64,000 nt of DNA, taken from positions 124,001-188,000 of the forward strand of contig KB899087.1 of assembly GCA_000378025.1 (NCBI GenBank). Reading direction: 5' to 3'. A program made the position numbers and the translations under genes. The stretch's first letter is position 1, and each line of letters opens with the position of its first letter. Shown here in pieces: positions 11,643 to 27,828 of this stretch. This stretch comes from Xanthobacteraceae bacterium 501b. GTDB lineage: Bacteria; Pseudomonadota; Alphaproteobacteria; Rhizobiales; Xanthobacteraceae. Below the pieces are notes generated by a model. It worked only from the letters and a program-made list of their open reading frames with translations. It made no database searches and was not told where the DNA came from.

Positions 11643-11801
11643 ACCGGCGATACTCTTGTCTTTCTGTGACCGGAGGGCAACAGGAGGGAGAGCGACGGCG
11701 GTTCCGGCATTTCAGCGGGAAGAATAGACGTATAATAGAACAATCGGCTACAGCCGGTGGGCGGGCGGCCAAGCGGGGCCCGCAGCATCCGGCGGGGGGA
11801 A

Positions 11802-14800
11802 ATGATGGGTGTCGAAGGGTTCCTGGCCAGCGAGGACGAGCGCGTCGCGCGCCAGCTCGTCGAGCAGGCGGACCTTATCCTGCAGGCGACCGACGGCGAT
11901 GTGCCGGCCCGGTTCGCCCATGGCTTGTTCGGTCGGGCGGTGGCGGAGGATGTACGTGTCTACACCCCGCACGAACTCGCCGGCCTGGCGCGCCTTGCCT
12001 ATGGCCATCTGAAGGTCCGGCGGCGCGACAGCTCCGACATCCGCATCGAACAGCCCCAGCCCGCCGAGGGCGGCGACCGGCTCGCCCGGGTGTCGGTGAT
12101 CGAGATCATCAATGACGACATGCCCTTCCTGCTCGATTCGGTCATGGGCGCGCTCAACGCCCAGGGCCTGACGGCAAGCTTCGTGGTGCACCCGATCATG
12201 GGCGTGGACCGCGACGCGGCCGGGCAGGTGACGAGCCTTGTTCCCGGCGAGACGCCGGCCGGCGCGCGCATGCGGCGCGAGAGCCTGATCCAGATCCACG
12301 TCCCGCGTCTCGAGGACGAAGGCCGGCGCGCCGCGCTGATCGAGGAACTCACCCTGGTGCTGAACCAGGTGCGCGTGGTGGTGGGCGCCTGGCAGCCGAT
12401 GATGGCGCAGGTGCGGGCCGCCGTCACCAACCTCACCCTCGCCCCCGCCATGGTGCCGCGCGAGGACCGCGAGGAGGCGATCGCCTTCCTCGAATGGCTG
12501 CTGGCCGGCCGCTTCACCTTTCTCGGCTGCCGCCATTACCAGTCCACCGGCACGCCCGGCGGCGCGAAGACGACAGTGTTCGAGCGGCGGATGGAGGACG
12601 CGCTGGGGCTGATGGCGGATGAAGCCTTCCGCCTGTTCCGGCCAACGGGCGACCCGCGCACCGTCAGCACCGACCTCGCCGAAGCGCTGGCCGATCCCAG
12701 CCCGCTGATCGTCACCAAGTCGCGCGCCGTGTCCAATGTCCACCGGCGGGCCTGGATCGATGTGGTTCTGGTCAAGCGGTACGATGCGCAGGGGCGCGTG
12801 GTCGGCGGGCTGTGCATCGCCGGGCTGTTCACCGCCACCGCCTATACGAGTTCGGTTCGCACCATCCCGATGCTGCGGCGCAAGGCGGCAACCGTGCTGG
12901 CGCGGGCCGGCTTCGCCCCCGAGAGCCATTCCGGCCGGGCACTGGTGAAGGTGCTCGAAACCTATCCCCGCGACGACCTGTTCCAGATCGACACCACCGC
13001 GCTCTACCAGTTCTCGCTGGCCATTCTCCAGCTCGACGAGCACCCGCGCGTGCGGGTGCTGGCGCTTAATGAGCGGTTCGACCGTTTCGTCTCGATCCTC
13101 GTCTTCGTGCCGCGCGAGCGCTACGACAGCGACGTGCGCGAGAAGATCGGCCATCTGCTGGCGGGGAGCTTCGGCGGCCAGATCGTCGCCTTCCGGCCGA
13201 TGTTCCTGGAAGGGCCGCTGATCCGCGTCCACTTCATCATTGAGCGCGGCCCCGGCGAGGTGCCGACCGTCAATCGCGCCACGCTGGAGGAGGCGATCGG
13301 CGCCATCATCCGCACCTGGGGCGACGGCTTTGCCGAGGCGCTGGCCGCCACGGTGCCCGCCAGCAAGGCGAGCGAGCTGATGGAGCGCTACGCCAAGGCG
13401 TTCCCGGCGGGCTATCAGGCGGCCTCACTGCCGGCCGAGGCGATCGACGATCTGCGGCTGATCGAGGATCTGAGCGATGCCAGCCCGGTGGCGGCGGATT
13501 TCCGGCCCTCGGCGCTGCGCGAGCGCGGCCGGGTCTCGCTCAAGGTGTTCAGCTACAAGGTGCCGCGCCTGCTCTCCGAGCGGGTGCCGCTGCTCGAATC
13601 GATGGGCTTCGTCGTCATCGACGAGCGCACCTTCACCATCAAGGCCGGCGGCGGCGCGCCGGTCTATCTGCACGACATGCTGCTGTCGCGGCGCGGCGGC
13701 GGCGATATCCCGCTCGACAAGCTGGGTCCACGGCTGCACGCGACGCTGATGGCGGTGCTGCGTGGCGGCGAGAGCGACGGCTTCAACGCGCTGGCGCTGA
13801 ACGCCCTTCTCGGCTGGCGCGACATCGCGCTGCTGCGGGCGCTGGGGCGCTATCTCCGGCAGGTCGGCATTCCGTTCAGCCAGGACTATCTCTGGCAGAC
13901 GCTGAACGCCCATCCCGCCCTCGCGCAGAAGCTGGTGGCGCTGTTCCATGCCCGCTTCGACCCCGACCATGGCGAGCGGCGGGCGGAGCGGCAGGAGGAA
14001 CTGCGCGCCGCGATCGAGACCGCGCTGGCCGATGTGCCGAGCCTCGACGAGGACCGCATCCTGCGCCGCTTTGCCAACCTGGTGGGCGCGGCGGTGCGGA
14101 CCAATTTCTTCCAGCGCGGGGCCCAGGGCGGCCACCGGCCGACCATCGCCATCAAGTTCCTGAGTGCCGAGGTCGAGGGGCTGCCGCAGCCGCGCCCGCT
14201 GTTCGAGATCTTCGTGCAGTCGCCGCGCGTCGAGGGCATTCATCTGCGCTTCGGCCGGGTGGCGCGCGGTGGCCTGCGCTGGTCTGACCGGCCGCAGGAT
14301 TTCCGCACCGAGGTGCTGGGCCTCGTCAAGGCGCAGCAGGTGAAGAATGCGGTCATCGTGCCGGTGGGCGCCAAGGGCGGCTTCGTGCCCCAGCAGCTCC
14401 CCGCCGGCCCGCGCGAGGCCATTCAGGCCGAGGGTGTCGAGGCCTACAAGCTGTTCATTTCCAGCCTGCTCGACGTCAGCGACAATATCGAGGACGGCCG
14501 CACCGTCCATCCCGCGCACACGGTGCGGCACGACGAGGACGACCCCTATCTCGTGGTGGCCGCCGACAAGGGCACCGCGACCTTCTCCGACACCGCCAAC
14601 GCGCTCTCGCTGCAGCGTGGCTTCTGGCTGGGCGACGCCTTCGCCTCCGGCGGCTCGGTCGGCTATGACCACAAGGCGATGGGCATCACCGCGCGCGGCG
14701 CCTGGGAGGCGGTGCGCCGGCATTTCCGCGAGATGGATGTCGATATCCGCCGCACGCCCTTCACCGTTGCCGGTGTCGGCGACATGTCGGGCGACGTGTT

Positions 14801-16658
14801 CGGCAATGGCATGATCCTGGAAAACACGATCCGCCTGGTCGCCGCCTTCGACCATCGCGACATCTTCCTCGATCCCAATCCGGACCCGGAAGCCTCGTTC
14901 CGCGAGCGCCAGCGGCTGTTCGCGCTGCCGCGTTCCAGCTGGCAGGACTATGACAAGTCGCTGATTTCGCCGGGCGGCGGCGTGTTCCCGCGCACCGCCA
15001 AGAGCATTCCGCTCACTTTGGCGATGCGCGAGGTGCTGGGCTTCGACAAGAGTTCGGCCTCTCCCTCCGAGGTGATCAGCGCGATTCTGCGGGCGCCGGT
15101 GGACCTGTTGTGGTTCGGCGGCATCGGCACTTATGTGCGCGCCGCCAGTGAGACCGACGCGCAGGCGGGCGACCGCGCCAATGACGGCGTGCGGATCGCC
15201 GGCAACCAGGTGCGGGCGCGGGTGATCGGCGAGGGCGCCAATCTCGGCGTCACCCAGCGCGGGCGCATCGAGGCGGCGCGCCGCGGCGTGCGGCTGAACA
15301 CCGACGCCATCGACAATTCCGCCGGCGTCAACACCTCCGATATCGAGGTGAACATCAAGATCGCCATGGCTCCCGCCCTGCGCGAGGGGCGGCTCGACCC
15401 GCAGGCGCGGGCGCAGGTGCTCGCCGGCATGACCGGCGATGTCGCCGCGCTGGTGCTGGCCAATAATTATCTGCAGACGCTGGCGCTTTCGCTGGCCGAA
15501 ATGCGCGGCCTCGACGATCTCGGCTTCCTGCAGCGGCTGATGCAGCGGCTGGAAGGGCGCGGGCTGCTCGACCGCGCGGTGGAATATCTGCCCTCCGACA
15601 CCGAGCTGAACGAGCGGCGCGGCCGGGGCGAGAGCCTGACACGGCCGGAAATGGCGGTGCTGCTGGCCTATGCCAAGCTTTCCGCCCAGGCCGACCTGAT
15701 CGATACCGACGTGCCGGATGATCCCTATCTCGCGCGCGAGCTGGCGGCCTATTTCCCTGCCGAACTGCGCGAGCATTTCCCCGAGGGGATCGAGCATCAC
15801 CGGCTGCGGCGCGACATCATCGCCACCCGCCTGTCCAACGCCATGATCAACCATGGCGGCCCGGCCTTCGTCGCCCGGCTGACGGACGAGACCGGGGCGG
15901 GGATCGACAGCATCGCCAAGGCCTTCGCCGTGGTGCGCGACGGTTTCGGCCTCGCCGGTCTCAACCGCGAGATCGACGCGCTGGATGGTCTCGTGGCCGG
16001 CGCGGTGCAGCTGGACCTCTATGGCGTCGTGCAGGACATGCTGCTCGACCGCTCGATCTGGTTCCTGCGCAATGTCGACCTCCGGCGCAATCTCGACGAG
16101 CTGGTCGGCCACTACGCCGCCGGCATCGCTCCGGTGGAGAAGGTGCTCGCCGGCCCGGTGCGTGAGTTGCTGCCCGAGGAATCGCGGGTGCTGCACGATG
16201 CCCGCATCGACCAGTGGACGCAGGCCGGCGTGCCTGAGGTGCTGGCGCGGCGCATCGCCCGCCTGCCGGCGGTGGAGAGCGCCACCGACATCGTGCTGAT
16301 CGCCGACCGCACGCGGGCGCCGCTGGCCGACGCGGCCGTGACCTTCTTCGCCGTCGCCCTGCTGTTCCGGCTCGACCGCATCCTCGGCCCGGCGCGGACC
16401 CTCTCGGTGAGCGACTATTACGACCGGCTGGCGCTGGAGCGGGCGCTGGCCGCCTTCGAGAGCGCGGTGCGCCGGCTCACCGCCGAGGTGATCGAGGAGC
16501 ATGGCGCCGGCGTCGCCGGGGTGTCGAGCTGGGCGCGGGCGCGCGGCGAGGTGGTGGAGCGGGCGCGCAATGGCGTGCACGAGATCGCCGGCTCGGGGCT
16601 CAGCGTGTCGAAGCTCTCGGTGGCGGCCAGCCTGATCGGCGACCTGGTGCGGGGCTAG
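11802..16658 (+). CDS. large NAD-specific glutamate dehydrogenase (180-kDa class)
   Basis: Converts glutamate to 2-oxoglutarate and ammonia with NAD, feeding amino acid carbon into the TCA cycle. At 1618 residues it belongs to the very large bacterial NAD-GDH class with a long N-terminal regulatory part containing ACT-like segments (about 1-700) before the catalytic core. The core is visible at about residues 823-860: GGLRWSDRP.DFRTEVLGL then KNAVIVPVGAKGGF. Further on are the nucleotide-binding segment VGVGDMSGDVFGNGM-like and DNSAGVNTSDIEVN. Two adjacent ATGs (11802, 11805) follow a G-rich RBS. The stop is only 28 bases before the first gene of the lic-like cassette, so read-through into that cassette is plausible. 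Confidence 0.95.
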   Translation: MMGVEGFLASEDERVARQLVEQADLILQATDGDVPARFAHGLFGRAVAEDVRVYTPHELAGLARLAYGHLKVRRRDSSDIRIEQPQPAEGGDRLARVSVIEIINDDMPFLLDSVMGALNAQGLTASFVVHPIMGVDRDAAGQVTSLVPGETPAGARMRRESLIQIHVPRLEDEGRRAALIEELTLVLNQVRVVVGAWQPMMAQVRAAVTNLTLAPAMVPREDREEAIAFLEWLLAGRFTFLGCRHYQSTGTPGGAKTTVFERRMEDALGLMADEAFRLFRPTGDPRTVSTDLAEALADPSPLIVTKSRAVSNVHRRAWIDVVLVKRYDAQGRVVGGLCIAGLFTATAYTSSVRTIPMLRRKAATVLARAGFAPESHSGRALVKVLETYPRDDLFQIDTTALYQFSLAILQLDEHPRVRVLALNERFDRFVSILVFVPRERYDSDVREKIGHLLAGSFGGQIVAFRPMFLEGPLIRVHFIIERGPGEVPTVNRATLEEAIGAIIRTWGDGFAEALAATVPASKASELMERYAKAFPAGYQAASLPAEAIDDLRLIEDLSDASPVAADFRPSALRERGRVSLKVFSYKVPRLLSERVPLLESMGFVVIDERTFTIKAGGGAPVYLHDMLLSRRGGGDIPLDKLGPRLHATLMAVLRGGESDGFNALALNALLGWRDIALLRALGRYLRQVGIPFSQDYLWQTLNAHPALAQKLVALFHARFDPDHGERRAERQEELRAAIETALADVPSLDEDRILRRFANLVGAAVRTNFFQRGAQGGHRPTIAIKFLSAEVEGLPQPRPLFEIFVQSPRVEGIHLRFGRVARGGLRWSDRPQDFRTEVLGLVKAQQVKNAVIVPVGAKGGFVPQQLPAGPREAIQAEGVEAYKLFISSLLDVSDNIEDGRTVHPAHTVRHDEDDPYLVVAADKGTATFSDTANALSLQRGFWLGDAFASGGSVGYDHKAMGITARGAWEAVRRHFREMDVDIRRTPFTVAGVGDMSGDVFGNGMILENTIRLVAAFDHRDIFLDPNPDPEASFRERQRLFALPRSSWQDYDKSLISPGGGVFPRTAKSIPLTLAMREVLGFDKSSASPSEVISAILRAPVDLLWFGGIGTYVRAASETDAQAGDRANDGVRIAGNQVRARVIGEGANLGVTQRGRIEAARRGVRLNTDAIDNSAGVNTSDIEVNIKIAMAPALREGRLDPQARAQVLAGMTGDVAALVLANNYLQTLALSLAEMRGLDDLGFLQRLMQRLEGRGLLDRAVEYLPSDTELNERRGRGESLTRPEMAVLLAYAKLSAQADLIDTDVPDDPYLARELAAYFPAELREHFPEGIEHHRLRRDIIATRLSNAMINHGGPAFVARLTDETGAGIDSIAKAFAVVRDGFGLAGLNREIDALDGLVAGAVQLDLYGVVQDMLLDRSIWFLRNVDLRRNLDELVGHYAAGIAPVEKVLAGPVRELLPEESRVLHDARIDQWTQAGVPEVLARRIARLPAVESATDIVLIADRTRAPLADAAVTFFAVALLFRLDRILGPARTLSVSDYYDRLALERALAAFESAVRRLTAEVIEEHGAGVAGVSSWARARGEVVERARNGVHEIAGSGLSVSKLSVAASLIGDLVRG

Positions 16659-16686: not shown

Positions 16687-17406
16687 GTGGACCGCTGCGC
16701 TGAGGTGGATGTCGTCATCCTCGCGGCCGGGCGGGGGCGCCGCATGGGCGTGGTGGAGCACAAGGCGCTGCTCCCGATCATCGACGGACAGGGAACGCTG
16801 GCGCGGCTGCTCGCCCAGTTGAGCACGGCCCCGGTGCGGCAGGTGACGGTGGTCACCGGTCATCGCCACGCGGCGGTCGAGGCCGTGGTGCGGGCGCGTC
16901 TTCCCCACGCGCGGTGCGTCTACAATCCACACTTTGCCGAAGGCGAGATGCTGCAAAGCCTCGCCTGCGCCTTCGCCGAAGAGGCGCAGGGGGCCGACTG
17001 CTGGGTGCTGCTGGCCGACACGGTCTACACCGATGCCACGCTCGACACCCTCTGGGCGTCGCCGGCGGGCGGGGTGGCGCTCGCGGTGGCGCCGCGCGAT
17101 CCGGCCGCCGATCGCGAGATCGCGGTGGAACTGTGCGGCGGGACCGTCGTCGCCCTGGCCGGTGAGGCGCCGCATGCCGCCTGGCGGATGGCGCATGCGG
17201 TGCGCTGGCCGGCATCGCTGCGTCCCCGGCTGTGTGCGGCGGCGCAGGCGGGCCTGCGCTTCCAGTGGCAGCTTATCGCCGCGCTGCTGCGGGAGGGTTT
17301 ACCGGAGCGGGCCACCGCGATTCATGCTATCCCGACACAGCCGGATGGGGCGTTCGACATTGATTCCGAGGCCGACCTCGCCCGTGTGCCGTCGATTCCG
17401 AGCTGA
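16687..17406 (+). CDS. NTP transferase domain protein, LicC-like nucleotidyltransferase
   Basis: A 239-residue GT-A-fold nucleotidyltransferase. The signature LAAGRGRRMG is at residues 12-21, with K26 positioned as the usual catalytic or binding lysine. The end reads FDIDSEADLARV, closely matching the Asp-containing C terminus of choline-phosphate cytidylyltransferase LicC and sugar-1-phosphate transferases. In this context it probably makes a CDP-activated small alcohol or a related NDP-activated phosphate donor for LicD; the substrate is not readable from sequence. GTG start with a strong GGAGGGGG ribosome site at 16675-16681. MobA- or GlmU-like roles cannot be excluded. Confidence 0.75.
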   Translation: MDRCAEVDVVILAAGRGRRMGVVEHKALLPIIDGQGTLARLLAQLSTAPVRQVTVVTGHRHAAVEAVVRARLPHARCVYNPHFAEGEMLQSLACAFAEEAQGADCWVLLADTVYTDATLDTLWASPAGGVALAVAPRDPAADREIAVELCGGTVVALAGEAPHAAWRMAHAVRWPASLRPRLCAAAQAGLRFQWQLIAALLREGLPERATAIHAIPTQPDGAFDIDSEADLARVPSIPS

Positions 17407-17430
17407 CGCCGTCCCCTTGCTTTCCGACGA

Positions 17431-18636
17431 ATGTGGATGAACCAGCAGCCTTATGACCTTGCCGGGCTTGTCGCCCGGTTCCGCGCCGACATCAGCAAGG
17501 ACGAATTCCATCGCGGTCGGGATGGCCGGTCGGGCCACGTCTTCGTCAAACAGGCGCGGGACGGCGCGAGCGCCCGGCGCGAATTCGAGGCGCTGAACCT
17601 GCTCGCGCATGCCGGCGGCGAGGCGCTGGTGCCCCGCCCGCTGGCGCTTCGTGGCCGCGAGCTCCGCCTCGAACTCGTGGAAGGCATCCGGCTCTACGAT
17701 CTGCTGCGCCTGTTCCGCCAGCTCGGCGACAGGGACGTGGCGCTGCGGGAGCGGGCCTCGCGCGCCTCGCTCGTGCTGCTGGGGCGCTGCCGCGCGCGGC
17801 TCGAACGGATGCAGGGGCTGCTGGCCGCTGCGGCCGGTGGGCTGAGCGTCGGGCCCTATCCCTGCGACGTCAAGGTGACGGGCATGTTCGCCATGCTGTC
17901 GCAACTGCTCGGCCTGCCCCCGCTGGACGCCGCCGAAACCGCCGAACTCGGCGCCTTCGAGGCGCGCTGGGCGCGGGAGGTGAGCGTGCCGTTTCGCGAC
18001 GCCACGCCGAAGAACATCATCGTCGCGGTGGAGAGCCTCGCCATCGGCCGGCATCCGAGCGAAGCGGCGCGGCGCGCGGCGCTGGCGCGGCTGCTGGAGG
18101 AGGGCGGGGCGGAGTTTTGGCGCAGCGTGCCGCTGCTGGATATCGACTTCTCCTCGGTCGAGCACCTGACGACGCCGGAGGACGATCTGGTGAGCCTGCT
18201 GGCGCATGAATCGAGCTTTGCCGCCGGTTTCCCGGCGGGCGCGAAGGTGGAGGACGGGCCGATGGGCACGGCGTGGCCGGACCCGGCGCGGGCGGCCTCC
18301 AGCTTCTTCGTGCGCTATCTCCGCTTCGCCGGACGCAAGGTCGCCTACCGGCTCATCAACCCGCTGGGCGGGGCGACGCGCTTCCGCCATGACCGCTTCG
18401 GCTTCTATTTCGAGACTCTGCCGGGCCTCCTCGCCGCCCTCGACCCGGCGCTGGCCGGAGCGATGCCTGCCCTCCTGGCACGCTGGTCCGCCATCGGCAC
18501 CGCCGCCGCCCCGTTCGATGTCGCCAACGGGAAGGGGCCGGACCTCTATCTCCAAGCCATCGGCCGGCCGGTGGATTACTGGCAGGAAAGCCCGCTGGAA
18601 CTGCCGGCCCGGCCGGCGCTTGCCGCTGCGCCATGA
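17431..18636 (+). CDS. kinase-like phosphotransferase (choline kinase/APH-like fold)
   Basis: A 401-residue protein with the layout of choline and aminoglycoside kinases. K40 (VFVK) with acidic E51/E53 soon after resembles the ATP-anchoring pair. FRDATPKNIIV places D190 and N195 as in the catalytic loop D-x4-N, and LLDIDFSS puts D237/D239 in the place of the metal-binding DxD/DFG element. The usual HxD becomes FRD, a departure from the choline kinase motif. It lies 24 bases after the LicC-like gene, and its stop overlaps the next start by four bases (ATGA). By position it is the LicA counterpart; the phosphorylated substrate is unknown. Confidence 0.6.
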   Translation: MWMNQQPYDLAGLVARFRADISKDEFHRGRDGRSGHVFVKQARDGASARREFEALNLLAHAGGEALVPRPLALRGRELRLELVEGIRLYDLLRLFRQLGDRDVALRERASRASLVLLGRCRARLERMQGLLAAAAGGLSVGPYPCDVKVTGMFAMLSQLLGLPPLDAAETAELGAFEARWAREVSVPFRDATPKNIIVAVESLAIGRHPSEAARRAALARLLEEGGAEFWRSVPLLDIDFSSVEHLTTPEDDLVSLLAHESSFAAGFPAGAKVEDGPMGTAWPDPARAASSFFVRYLRFAGRKVAYRLINPLGGATRFRHDRFGFYFETLPGLLAALDPALAGAMPALLARWSAIGTAAAPFDVANGKGPDLYLQAIGRPVDYWQESPLELPARPALAAAP

Positions 18637-19631
18637 ACGAGGCCGGCATCCGTGCCGTTATTGCCCGGCTGACCCAGCGGCCCACGGGCGGGCTGCCGGT
18701 GGAGCCGGCCGCGCCCGAACGCCTCGCCGCCCTCATCTGCGCCAAGCCGTGGCGCCGCTCGCGCGTCGATGCTGCGACGGGCAGCGACATCCGCGCCAAG
18801 GTCACGGCGGCCCGTGCGGCCGGCGCCCCGATCGAGTTCGCCGTGCCGTTCGGGGGCTACAAGGGGGCTCTGCAGCCATCGGCGCCGCATCCTGACTGGG
18901 CCGAGCTGTTCTGGATCGGCTATCTGCGCCGCTACGCGGAGAGCTTCGCCGCTGCGCATCCCGCCGGGGTGCTGTTTTCCCTGTCCTATTTTCACGGCGT
19001 GCTGGGCGCCATCAACGGCCTGCCGTTGGGCGATCAGGATGCCTATATCGCCGGCCTGCGGCCGCTGCTGGCTTATTTCTCCGATGCCCGCATCGGCTTC
19101 CGCCTGGTCGACCTGTCCGAGCATTTCGGCGGTGCGGCGGAGGCGGCGGCGGCGATCGAGCGCCGCTTTCAGGACCGGCGCGCGGCCATCGAGGCCGGCG
19201 GCGTGCCGGCGCTGGCGCTGCAGAGCGCGGCCCGCAACCTCCTCCGCCGGCCTGGGGATCCTGCACCCGCGCAGCCGGAGATCGTGGCCTCCGCGCTGCG
19301 CTGCGTGGCGATGGAGAGCCTGGAGGAGCGACGCCGCTTCAACAAGTTCAGCACCCGCATCCAGATCACCCATATTCGCGGCGCCGCGCTCGCCCTGCAC
19401 CTCGGCTCCTGTGCCACCTCGGTCATGCAGCCCTGGGTCGGGACCGGGGTGCTGGAGGGCGATGGCGCGGGCGGCTGGCGGCCGCGCATTCTGAACGGCG
19501 CTGGCGCCGGGATCGACGCCCGGCTCGACGTGCGCCACCCGCTGGAGAACATCGCCCCCGCGCTGCGCTCGATCGGCATCTGCCACCGGCCCGCGTGGGC
19601 CGGCGGGAAAGGCGGAGGTGGCGATGAGTGA
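18633..19631 (+). CDS. unassigned protein in lic-like cassette, possible isocyanide-synthase-like fold
   Basis: A 332-residue cytoplasmic-looking protein with no signal peptide or membrane segment. I do not firmly recognise it. The pattern IEFAVPFGGYKG, then PDWAELF, then HPAGVLFSLSY, and a late RIQITHIR...SVMQPWVGTGVLE segment, recalls the block order of the DIT1/PvcA (isonitrile synthase) family: P-F-x-x-K, PD-x-x-E, PG and a C-terminal TPWH region. This is a visual resemblance only. It overlaps the kinase-like gene by ATGA and the LicD gene by eight bases, so it is translated as part of the same unit and probably supplies or modifies the group transferred by LicD. Confidence 0.5.
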   Translation: MNEAGIRAVIARLTQRPTGGLPVEPAAPERLAALICAKPWRRSRVDAATGSDIRAKVTAARAAGAPIEFAVPFGGYKGALQPSAPHPDWAELFWIGYLRRYAESFAAAHPAGVLFSLSYFHGVLGAINGLPLGDQDAYIAGLRPLLAYFSDARIGFRLVDLSEHFGGAAEAAAAIERRFQDRRAAIEAGGVPALALQSAARNLLRRPGDPAPAQPEIVASALRCVAMESLEERRRFNKFSTRIQITHIRGAALALHLGSCATSVMQPWVGTGVLEGDGAGGWRPRILNGAGAGIDARLDVRHPLENIAPALRSIGICHRPAWAGGKGGGGDE

Positions 19632-20415
19632 TCTCGCCGGCCTCCAGCGCGAGGCGCTCGCCATGCTCCTCGAATTCGACCGCATCTGCCGCCACCACGG
19701 CATCGCCTATCAGCTCGCAGCCGGCTCGCTGCTTGGCGCGGCCCGCCATGGCGGCTTTGTCCCGTGGGATGACGATATCGATGTCTGCCTGCGGCGCGCC
19801 GCCTATGAGCGCTTTCTCGCCGTGGCGCCGGCGGAGCTGTCGCCATCCTACCGGCTGCTCCACAACGGAACCGAGCCGGGCTGCGGCTTTCTGTACTGCA
19901 AGATCGTCAGCCGCGGGGAGGGGGAGGCGAACTCCCCCGCCTTCGTCGACGTGTTCCCCTTCGACGGCGTCGAATCCGGGCGGTTCCTTGCCGGGCTGCA
20001 GATGTGGACTGCGTTTATCCTGATGCAGATGCTGTTTCTTCGTCAAATCGTGCCTGCGCCGGCTTCCCCTGCACCCTGGAGGATGCGGCGCTTGGTGCGC
20101 CGCGCGCTCACCTGGATCGTTGCCCGGCAGGACCCGCATCGCCTTGCCCGATGGCTGGAAAGGGTCGCACGATGGCACGAGGGACGCCCGACCGGGCACA
20201 TCGCCTGCCTTGTCTCCGGGCGGCTGCGCTACTGCCAGATACGGGCGGAGAGGGATTTCGACGACTGCATCGAGGCGGCCTTCGAGGGCCACGACTTCCC
20301 GGTGCCGCGCCGGTTCGACACGGTGCTGCGCCGGCTCTATGGCGACTGGCGCGTGCCGCTCCCGGTCGAGAAGCGTCAGCCGCACCACCAGATCGTAAAA
20401 AGCGATCCTCCCTGA
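19624..20415 (+). CDS. LicD-family phosphotransferase
   Basis: LicD proteins transfer phosphocholine or a related phospho-group from a CDP-activated donor to cell-surface glycans. The family hallmark is at residues 34-54: GSLLGAARHGGF followed by the acidic WDDDIDV metal-binding motif. A second block, VDVFPFDGV, is also conserved. Length 263. A hydrophobic stretch at about 123-140 may associate with the membrane. ATG at 19624 with GGAGG upstream, starting inside the last codons of the preceding gene; a GTG at 19618 is possible. It closes the four-gene cassette. The family assignment is firm, the transferred group is inferred. Confidence 0.88.
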   Translation: MSDLAGLQREALAMLLEFDRICRHHGIAYQLAAGSLLGAARHGGFVPWDDDIDVCLRRAAYERFLAVAPAELSPSYRLLHNGTEPGCGFLYCKIVSRGEGEANSPAFVDVFPFDGVESGRFLAGLQMWTAFILMQMLFLRQIVPAPASPAPWRMRRLVRRALTWIVARQDPHRLARWLERVARWHEGRPTGHIACLVSGRLRYCQIRAERDFDDCIEAAFEGHDFPVPRRFDTVLRRLYGDWRVPLPVEKRQPHHQIVKSDPP

Positions 20416-20455: not shown

Positions 20456-22414
<1,959 letters not shown>

Positions 22415-26185: not shown

Positions 26186-27115
26186 ATGACGCAATCGCTT
26201 CCCAGACTTCGGCTCGGCACGCGCGGCAGCCCGCTGGCGCTCTGGCAGGCGCATGCGGTGCGCGACGCGCTGCTCAAGGCCCATCGCTGGCCGGACGAGG
26301 CCGTCGAGGTGCAGGTGATCCGCACCACCGGCGACGCCATCACCGACCGGGCATTGTCGGAAGCCGGCGGCAAGGGGCTGTTCACCAAGGAACTTGAGGA
26401 GGCGCTGCTCGACCGGCGCATCGACCTCGCCGTGCATTCAGCCAAGGACATGCCCACCCGCCTGCCGGACGGGCTGCACCTCGTCGGCTATCTCCCGCGC
26501 GCGGATGTGCGCGACGCGCTGATCCTGCGCGAGGGCGTCGCGCTGCGCGACCTGAAGCCGGGGGCGAAGGTGGGCACCGCCTCGCTGCGGCGCGAGGCGC
26601 AGCTGCGCCGGCTGCGGCCGGACCTTCAAGTCTCGCTGCTCCGCGGCAATGTGCACACCCGCCTCGCCAAGGTGGAGAGCGGCGAGTTCGACGGCACGCT
26701 GCTCGCCTATGCCGGCCTCAGCCGCCTCGGCCTCGCCGACAAGGTCAGCTCGGTGCTGGAGACCGCCGATTTCCTGCCCGCCGTCGGGCAGGGGGCGGTG
26801 GCGATCGAGACCCGCTTCGGCGATATCGGCGTGGACGCGCTGGTGGTGCCGGTGGTGTGCCCGGCCACCGGGCTGGCGCTGCGGGTGGAGCGGGCCTATC
26901 TCGGCCAGCTCGACGGCTCCTGCCGCACGCCGATCGGCGGGCTGGCGCAGCTGGAGGGCGACGAGATCCGCTTTCGCGGCGCCGTGCTCTCGCCCGATGG
27001 CGCGCGCTATTACGAGATCGTGCGCTTTGGGCCGCGCAACCGCGCGCTGGAACTCGGCATCGCCGCCGGGCAGGAGATGCGCGCTCTGGTGCCGCCCGAA
27101 CTGCTCCCGCACTGA
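26186..27115 (+). CDS. hemC: porphobilinogen deaminase (hydroxymethylbilane synthase)
   Basis: Third committed step of heme synthesis: joins four porphobilinogens into hydroxymethylbilane. The N terminus RLGTRGSPLALWQA and the segment HSAKDMPT are highly conserved. The dipyrromethane cofactor cysteine lies in LDGSCRTPIGG. Length 309, normal. First gene of a plus-strand run hemC-hemD-Mic60-HemY, with 11 bases to hemD. Confidence 0.97.
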   Translation: MTQSLPRLRLGTRGSPLALWQAHAVRDALLKAHRWPDEAVEVQVIRTTGDAITDRALSEAGGKGLFTKELEEALLDRRIDLAVHSAKDMPTRLPDGLHLVGYLPRADVRDALILREGVALRDLKPGAKVGTASLRREAQLRRLRPDLQVSLLRGNVHTRLAKVESGEFDGTLLAYAGLSRLGLADKVSSVLETADFLPAVGQGAVAIETRFGDIGVDALVVPVVCPATGLALRVERAYLGQLDGSCRTPIGGLAQLEGDEIRFRGAVLSPDGARYYEIVRFGPRNRALELGIAAGQEMRALVPPELLPH

Positions 27116-27126
27116 CGGGGCGCGAC

Positions 27127-27828
27127 ATGCGGGTGCTGGTGACACGGCCACAGCCGGACGCGCAGGCCACGGCCGCGCGGCTTGAGGCCGCCGGGCATGG
27201 CGCGCTGATCGATTCCATGCTCGCGGTGGAGGCGGTGGCGGCCGTCCTGCCGCCGGGGGCGTTCGACGCGGTGGCGCTGACCAGCGTCAATGGCGCCCGC
27301 CTGCTGGCGGCCCGCCCGGAACTGCCGGCGCTGGCGGGGCTGCCGCTTTATGCCGTCGGCCGGCGCACGGCGGCGGCGGCGCCGGCGGCGTTCGACACCG
27401 TTCATGTCGCGGGAGGCGATGGCGCCGCGCTGGCCGAACTGCTGCGCGCCAAGCTGCCCCCCGGCGCCCGGCTGCTTTACGTCGCCGGCGAGGAGCGGGC
27501 GGTCGATCTCGGCGCGGTGCTGGCGGGCGACGGCATTTCCACCGAACTTTTCGTGATCTACCGCACCGTCCCGGCGCAGGCGCTGGCGGCGACGACCGTG
27601 GCGGCGGTGCGGGAGGGACGGATCGACGCGGCCTTCCACTTTTCGCCGCGCACCGCCGCCACCCTTGCCGACCGGGCGGAGGCAGCCGGTGTGGCGACGT
27701 ATTTCCGCCATGTCGTGCATCTGTGCTTCTCTGCCAATGTAGCGAAGCCGCTGGCGGCGGCCGGCTGGCCGAACCGGATCGCCGCCGCGCCGACGGAAGA
27801 GGGCCTGTTCGATCTCCTGAACGGGTAG
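27127..27828 (+). CDS. hemD: uroporphyrinogen-III synthase
   Basis: Closes and inverts ring D of hydroxymethylbilane to give uroporphyrinogen III. HemD is poorly conserved, but the 233-residue length, the start MRVLVTRPQPDA, the hinge-proximal AVALTSVNGAR and the C-terminal HFSPRTAATLAD match the two-domain family. The position directly after hemC supports the call. Start ATG at 27127. Confidence 0.9.
   Translation: MRVLVTRPQPDAQATAARLEAAGHGALIDSMLAVEAVAAVLPPGAFDAVALTSVNGARLLAARPELPALAGLPLYAVGRRTAAAAPAAFDTVHVAGGDGAALAELLRAKLPPGARLLYVAGEERAVDLGAVLAGDGISTELFVIYRTVPAQALAATTVAAVREGRIDAAFHFSPRTAATLADRAEAAGVATYFRHVVHLCFSANVAKPLAAAGWPNRIAAAPTEEGLFDLLNG

Follow-up and report, generated by a model that had tools for sequence, protein, structure and literature searches.

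A rare four-gene cassette pairing LicD with a distant PvcA/Dit1-superfamily protein points to a possibly novel surface decoration

In the Lic-1 (licABCD) pathway, LicA and LicC make cytidine diphosphate (CDP)-choline, and LicD passes phosphocholine to a glycan (available parts of PMC10434233). Here we describe a four-gene cassette in a 64-kb window of Xanthobacteraceae bacterium 501b (the whole stretch of DNA analysed, 64,000 nucleotides of contig KB899087.1). The cassette is like Lic-1 in activation and transfer, bringing together a probable kinase, a nucleoside triphosphate (NTP) transferase and LicD. It differs in its order, which runs NTP transferase, kinase, PvcA-like protein, LicD (genes 1 to 4), and in an added gene of the isonitrile-synthase superfamily, which the same parts of PMC10434233 do not include in the Lic-1 pathway. 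A preliminary description had read the locus as a lic-type system; the Lic-like layout stands, but that reading missed the main feature, the PvcA/Dit1-superfamily gene. We consider the chances evenly balanced that the four genes work as a single biosynthetic unit, making a small group and attaching it through phosphate; such a unit might produce a surface decoration of a new kind. Given that the choline-kinase motif is missing from gene 2 and that the cassette carries no gene for the LicB permease (the genome elsewhere was not searched for one), we do not count it as a member of Lic-1.

Gene 3 invites comparison with the PvcA/IsnA isonitrile synthases (PF05141; PDB 3e59, 9dh4 and 9dhm). It differs from these in having its own FGGYK motif, in an overall identity of 14–18% to three canonical PvcAs and in its LicD neighbour; it also lies below PF05141 detection, and the cassette has no PvcB-type gene. 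Yeast Dit1, which forms N-formyl-tyrosine, is of the same superfamily as gene 3 but makes a spore-wall precursor, and we know of no kinase, nucleotidyl or LicD step associated with it. The accessible sections of PMC7345447 name ribulose-5-phosphate as the PvcA donor and indicate, from Dit1, that the fold need not yield an isonitrile.

Phosphonate activation by PntC/LicC is alike in that nucleotidyl activation is followed by a proposed surface transfer (PMC6697681, in part), and in that the NTP transferase can lie inside a fused protein. It differs in that our genome has no PEP (phosphoenolpyruvate) mutase and the cassette no step forming a C-P bond. Two PEP_mutase-family ORFs (open reading frames) are present in the genome; both lack EDKxxxxxNS, which we take to be the PEP mutase signature, and the second reads as an isocitrate lyase. 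Since neither looks like PEP mutase, phosphonate decoration was rejected. A LicC-LicA fusion of Treponema denticola, reportedly described by Kent in 2004, combines an NTP transferase with a kinase, as does one of the cassette homologues below, but is said to serve a choline pathway to phosphatidylcholine. The LicD neighbourhoods of Proteus and Fusobacterium, taken as yardsticks, do not read as licABCD loci, and those of Ruminococcus and Lactiplantibacillus contain no annotated kinase gene. Near LicD in Fusobacterium vincentii (L028:8970-10802), a protein of 610 amino acids (aa) reads as a PntC-like fusion of NTP transferase and aminotransferase. In the open PMC literature, which leaves most subscription-journal papers outside its scope, we found no paper linking LicD with PvcA or an isonitrile synthase.

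Conservation and rarity of the four-gene order

All four genes were found by tblastn, in the same order and on the same strand, in a second genome of the genus (G016) and in a Rhodobacter metagenome-assembled genome (L011). For genes 1 to 4, identity to the window is 59, 68, 63 and 62.5% in G016 and 39, 41, 46 and 37% in L011. Genes 1 and 2 of L011 form one open frame of 631 aa and, given the starts chosen, its gene 3 runs 13 bases into gene 4. Because the same order recurs in two other genomes, we conclude that the grouping is more than chance. The preliminary description had made much depend on whether the gene order is kept elsewhere, and its account of four genes in one orientation, with their coordinates and spacings, proved correct throughout: genes 1 and 2 are 24 bases apart, genes 2 and 3 share the 4 bases ATGA, and genes 3 and 4 share 8.

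The four-gene unit is rare. Relatives of genes 1, 2 and 4 accompany a gene 3 relative at only one of ten loci (L011) and were not found by tblastn at the other nine; three of the ten are short (7.0, 9.2 and 10.3 kb), and neighbours may fall outside them. With the window's own genome counted each time, relatives of gene 3 occur in 3 of 61 related genomes (one of them partial), in 2 of 385 genomes of the class and in 1 of 299 of the phylum. A gene 2 profile matched the own genome and, partially, one other (E 6.7e-4) among 297 genomes of the order, and the own genome only among 385 of the class at E<=1e-5. The class and phylum scans for gene 3 and the order and class scans for gene 2 scored the best 4–7 candidates per genome, and the scan of genome contigs relies on exact short patterns, so that relatives can be missed. 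One gene 3 match in another genome of the genus (G011) was discarded as a true cassette gene, since its identity is 34% across a stretch of 99 residues and its loci (L004 and L007) carry no relatives of genes 1, 2 or 4 by tblastn.

Families of the four proteins

Gene 3 belongs to the PvcA/Dit1 superfamily by fold and family profile. Its relative on L009 scores 29.8 bits against PF05141 (cut-off 26.4), and K77 of its FGGYK motif has an invariant counterpart in PvcA (Table 1). The assignment is to the superfamily and stops short of an isonitrile synthase proper.

Gene 4 is a LicD protein (PF04991, 102 bits; cut-off 22.6), as the preliminary description had proposed, and is the only LicD match in the 5.1-Mb genome. 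The L011 homologue scores 114.8 bits. The sole NCBIfam match of gene 4 is the cholinephosphotransferase Mf1 model, whose cut-off of 225 bits is well above the 77.9 reached.

Gene 1 is a member of NTP_transf_3 (PF12804, 73.6 bits; cut-off 27), a broad MobA-like NTP transferase domain. K26 of its LAAGRGRRMG...HK signature is invariant in all three cassette homologues and is the only lysine in the protein. The nearest NCBIfam models (the DVU_1551 family, MocA and GlmU) are all far under their own cut-offs. A profile of the three gene 1 sequences matched mostly GlmU in the PDB (best E 4e-5), with 6pd1, which we take to be PntC, at 0.002; a PntC-like protein is 25% identical to gene 1 over 130 aa. 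These matches fit a nucleotidyltransferase for a small phosphate without singling out LicC. The earlier label of gene 1 as LicC-like holds for the nucleotidyltransferase; the closest profiles, of general MobA/MocA/GlmU type, make LicC identity no more than possible.

For gene 2, a genome-wide frame scan with PF01636 (APH) gave 30.7 bits (cut-off 23.2), and the fragment 17476-18027 alone gave 30.8 bits (E 3.3e-7). Residues K40, E51, D190, N195, D237 and D239 are invariant in all three homologues; by the general scheme for kinases, we read these as the lysine and glutamate of such enzymes, their catalytic Asp-Asn and their metal Asp. The FRDATPKN loop was aligned with the APH catalytic loop in two of three hhalign comparisons, themselves not significant. 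A Foldseek search with the structural model gave an APH as best match at E 0.28, which we did not use as evidence, and PDB sequence searches with gene 2 and with the fused L011 protein returned nothing useful. Gene 2 is probably an APH-fold kinase, judged from its sequence; its kinase nature is partly shown.

LicA carries a Brenner motif, (CS)HNDhX3N, and a choline-kinase motif that starts (ILV)X2ID(FWY)E(YF) (PMC4364537, portions available). The first reads PFRDATPKN in gene 2, with Asp and Asn kept and His-Asn changed to Phe-Arg; the second is absent, the sequence reading DIDFSSVEHL, and the choline-kinase family PF01633 gives no match. Because motif and match are both missing, choline is an unlikely substrate of gene 2, and the head group is probably not choline. 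The preliminary description had called gene 2 choline kinase/APH-like. The APH half survives on the fragment but not over the full length, the choline-kinase half finds no match in PF01633, the remark that the kinase motif contains FRD is correct, and the suggestion of a substrate other than that of the known systems is supported.

Proposed pathway and alternatives

In the pathway that we propose, gene 3 would make or modify the head group. The simplest such step is a one-carbon addition that turns an amine into a formamide or an isonitrile, modelled on gene 3 relatives that act on tyrosine or tryptophan. Gene 2 would phosphorylate a hydroxyl of the gene 3 product, gene 1 would turn the phosphate into a nucleoside diphosphate (NDP)-activated form, and LicD would move the phospho-group onto a hydroxyl, probably that of a surface glycan. 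The fusion of genes 1 and 2 in L011 supports the coupling of phosphorylation to activation, and a surface glycan is named as acceptor solely because LicD is present. The neighbourhoods of other gene 3 relatives, described below, suit an enzyme of small-molecule metabolism that draws on pentose phosphates. We infer the order of the steps, the chemistry of gene 3, the nucleotide used, the head group, the acceptor and the surface location. In its most specific form, which we offer tentatively and think more probably wrong than right, gene 3 may make an isonitrile- or N-formyl-bearing alcohol that is phosphorylated, nucleotidyl-activated and put on a surface glycan by LicD. This would be the first bacterial surface to bear a phospho-linked isonitrile or formamide head group, and the coat, differing from one close relative to the next, might bind metal or act as an antigen. 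If so, Lic-type phospho-decoration of glycans would be joined with isonitrile or formyl-amine formation, the head groups of LicD would reach beyond choline and similar groups, a distant PvcA/Dit1 branch would gain a role, and a compact unit of four genes (three when fused) would be at hand for laboratory reconstitution.

Several results weigh against this pathway. Full-length gene 2 matched no kinase family above cut-off in hmmscan (only DUF6491 and RIO1, E 0.14), and its homologues from G016 and L011 gave no APH match. Comparison by hhalign with three APH-family alignments was not significant (Prob 0.8–1.3%), and a hidden Markov model of nine local APH-family proteins did not separate gene 2 from 200 shuffles. 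The AlphaFold model of gene 2 is poor, with a confidence score (pLDDT) of 47. Gene 3 itself gives no PF05141 match, and the cassette lacks a PvcB-type iron/2-oxoglutarate (Fe/2OG) oxygenase gene; a PvcB-type ORF adjoins PvcA at two of three canonical loci, and none was seen at the third (families assigned by reading the ORFs). PntC has a second catalytic lysine, Lys153 (PMC6697681, partial text), for which gene 1 has no lysine counterpart because K26 is its only one. Finally, the cassette contains no glycan-building gene.

Some LicD relatives transfer ribitol-phosphate-type groups, and the substrate of gene 3 might be a pentose phosphate and not an amine. The unit would then supply LicD with a CDP-alditol-like or other NDP-activated polyol; we regard this as distinctly unlikely. 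Some gene 3 relatives, in uncultured Alphaproteobacteria, adjoin split transketolase genes. A TarI/TarJ-like ORF lies near LicD at a Proteus mirabilis locus (L027, by reading), and the PvcA donor, ribulose-5-phosphate (PMC7345447, as above), points the same way. However, the cassette has no reductase or dehydrogenase, a pentose that already carried its phosphate would need no kinase, and one gene 3 relative (on L005) stands in a row with an aminotransferase, a methyltransferase and metK. It is also unlikely that the product is a soluble or lipid-linked small molecule, such as a phosphodiester natural product, and that LicD acts on a lipid or small molecule instead of a surface glycan. No glycosyltransferase family was found among 11 neighbouring window ORFs scanned and none was read among the L011 ORFs, the PvcA relatives known to us make small metabolites, and the one NCBIfam match of gene 4, under its cut-off, is to a lipid-modifying enzyme. 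A released product would leave the lack of an exporter in the cassette to be explained, and LicD is described as moving phosphocholine onto surface glycans (PMC10434233, available parts).

Ordinary Lic-1 decoration with phosphocholine (or phosphoethanolamine) plus an accessory gene would account for a LicD above its cut-off beside a kinase and an NTP transferase, and for the Mf1 match, though that lies far under its cut-off. We consider it very improbable: the LicA choline-kinase motif, a PF01633 match and a LicB gene in the cassette are all missing, and the conserved PvcA-like gene would be left unexplained. For the first two of these reasons a plain phosphocholine system was rejected as first choice. 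AmgK/MurU is a sugar-kinase/nucleotidyltransferase salvage pair, and genes 1 and 2 could be another, with genes 3 and 4 as chance neighbours; the GlmU matches of gene 1 and the APH match of the gene 2 fragment would suit such a pair. This, too, is hard to credit, since the four genes stay together both at the one site and in a genome of another taxonomic order.

Features of the locus and its site

The four plus-strand ORFs sit between gdh and the convergent acs (Table 1). A promoter/terminator scan found no promoter-like site and 5 terminator-like sites, compared with 3.5 (standard deviation 2.0) in shuffles.

Table 1 Coordinates of the cassette, its motifs and its flanking genes in the window
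Feature	Coordinates	Strand	Basis
Gene 1: MobA/LicC-type nucleotidyltransferase, 239 aa, GTG start	16687..17406	+	PF12804; LAAGRGRRMG...HK signature
Gene 2: probable APH-fold small-molecule kinase, 401 aa	17431..18636	+	PF01636 on fragment; invariant residues
Gene 2 catalytic-loop motif FRDATPKN, residues 188-195	17992..18015	+	sequence; single match in window
Gene 3: distant PvcA/Dit1 (isonitrile-synthase superfamily) protein, 332 aa	18633..19631	+	
Gene 3 FGGYK motif, residues 73-77	18849..18863	+	K77 aligns with invariant PvcA Lys
Gene 4: LicD-family phosphotransferase, 263 aa from ATG 19624	19624..20415	+	PF04991
LicD motif PWDDDID	19762..19782	+	translation; PWDDD.D kept in 3/3 cassette homologues
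Inserted stretch, gdh stop codon to acs stop codon	16659..20455	.	cassette absent here in 28/30 genus genomes
Left flank: NAD-glutamate dehydrogenase gene gdh, outside cassette	11757..16658	+	PF05088 820.9 bits
Right flank: acetyl-CoA synthetase gene acs, outside cassette	20456..22414	-	PF00501, PF16177

All 30 genomes of the genus have gdh, and two (the own genome and G016) carry the cassette between gdh and acs; exactly these two have LicD. In 26 genomes acs lies <=1.5 kb after gdh with no cassette, and in G019 and G025, where the cassette is also absent, the distance is about 1.9 and 1.7 kb. The nearest relative by the gdh stretch, G026, has no cassette, although its acs is 99.1% identical and its gdh 98.9% (1329 residues aligned). 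In a base-by-base comparison of 16 loci, flank homology ended close to the stop codons of gdh and acs. The G016 flanks are 93.6 (purH), 93.4 (gdh) and 95.5% (acs) identical, compared with 59–68% for the cassette proteins; large divergence amid near-identical flanks is expected of a variable surface trait. Both gain by exchange at a fixed site and retention with fast divergence fit these data, and either is usual for surface-antigen loci. In G019 the spacer between gdh and acs holds another ORF (L097:181-948) that by reading resembles an EAL-type protein, so the spacer may accept different inserts.

Base composition showed no sign of recent foreign DNA: the cassette has a G+C fraction of 0.67–0.73 against 0.65–0.70 in purH, gdh and acs, and its composition is that of the host. 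A phage origin was dropped after a scan of viral contigs with gene 3 found no relative; PHROGs gave only two weak matches to the cassette, both to LicD (E 0.083 and 0.18). So was a plasmid origin, gene 3 matching four Rhizobium plasmid records at 25% and gene 2 none.

Around other gene 3 relatives, a different set of genes recurs in uncultured Alphaproteobacteria (L010, L014, L017 and L018; L014 and L017 from rumen): an S-adenosylmethionine (SAM) methyltransferase, an alpha/beta hydrolase, a transketolase split into N and C halves, and the FGGYK PvcA-like protein, joined in L010, L017 and L018 by a RidA-type ORF. This looks like a small-molecule pathway; Pfam scans were made for L014, the L009 transketolase half and the L017 RidA-type ORF, and the other families were read from the ORFs. 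On Rhizobium leguminosarum plasmid pCC283b_4 (L005:3595-8948), a class-III aminotransferase, a methyltransferase, metK, a major facilitator superfamily (MFS) transporter and the gene 3 relative stand in a row. A further relative from the same species (L016) has no ATG, GTG or TTG start in the part searched and may be truncated. In Candidatus Gottesmanbacteria (L012:7935-9906), the gene 3 relative is followed directly by a D-Ala-D-Ala-ligase-type ATP-grasp gene (PF07478).

Within the genus, G011 encodes a different, more PvcA-like protein (L007:8242-8580 and L004; PF05141 22.5 bits, cut-off 26.4), which adjoins the ORF of an ATP-binding cassette (ABC) transporter ATPase, by reading similar to part of a haem-type importer. 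A 281-aa protein of another genome of the order (L064:1192-2037, G130), at 22 bits and likewise under the PF05141 cut-off, is possibly another distant PvcA branch. In the window itself, hemC (porphobilinogen deaminase) and hemD (uroporphyrinogen-III synthase) lie beyond acs at 26186-27828 and are ordinary housekeeping genes.

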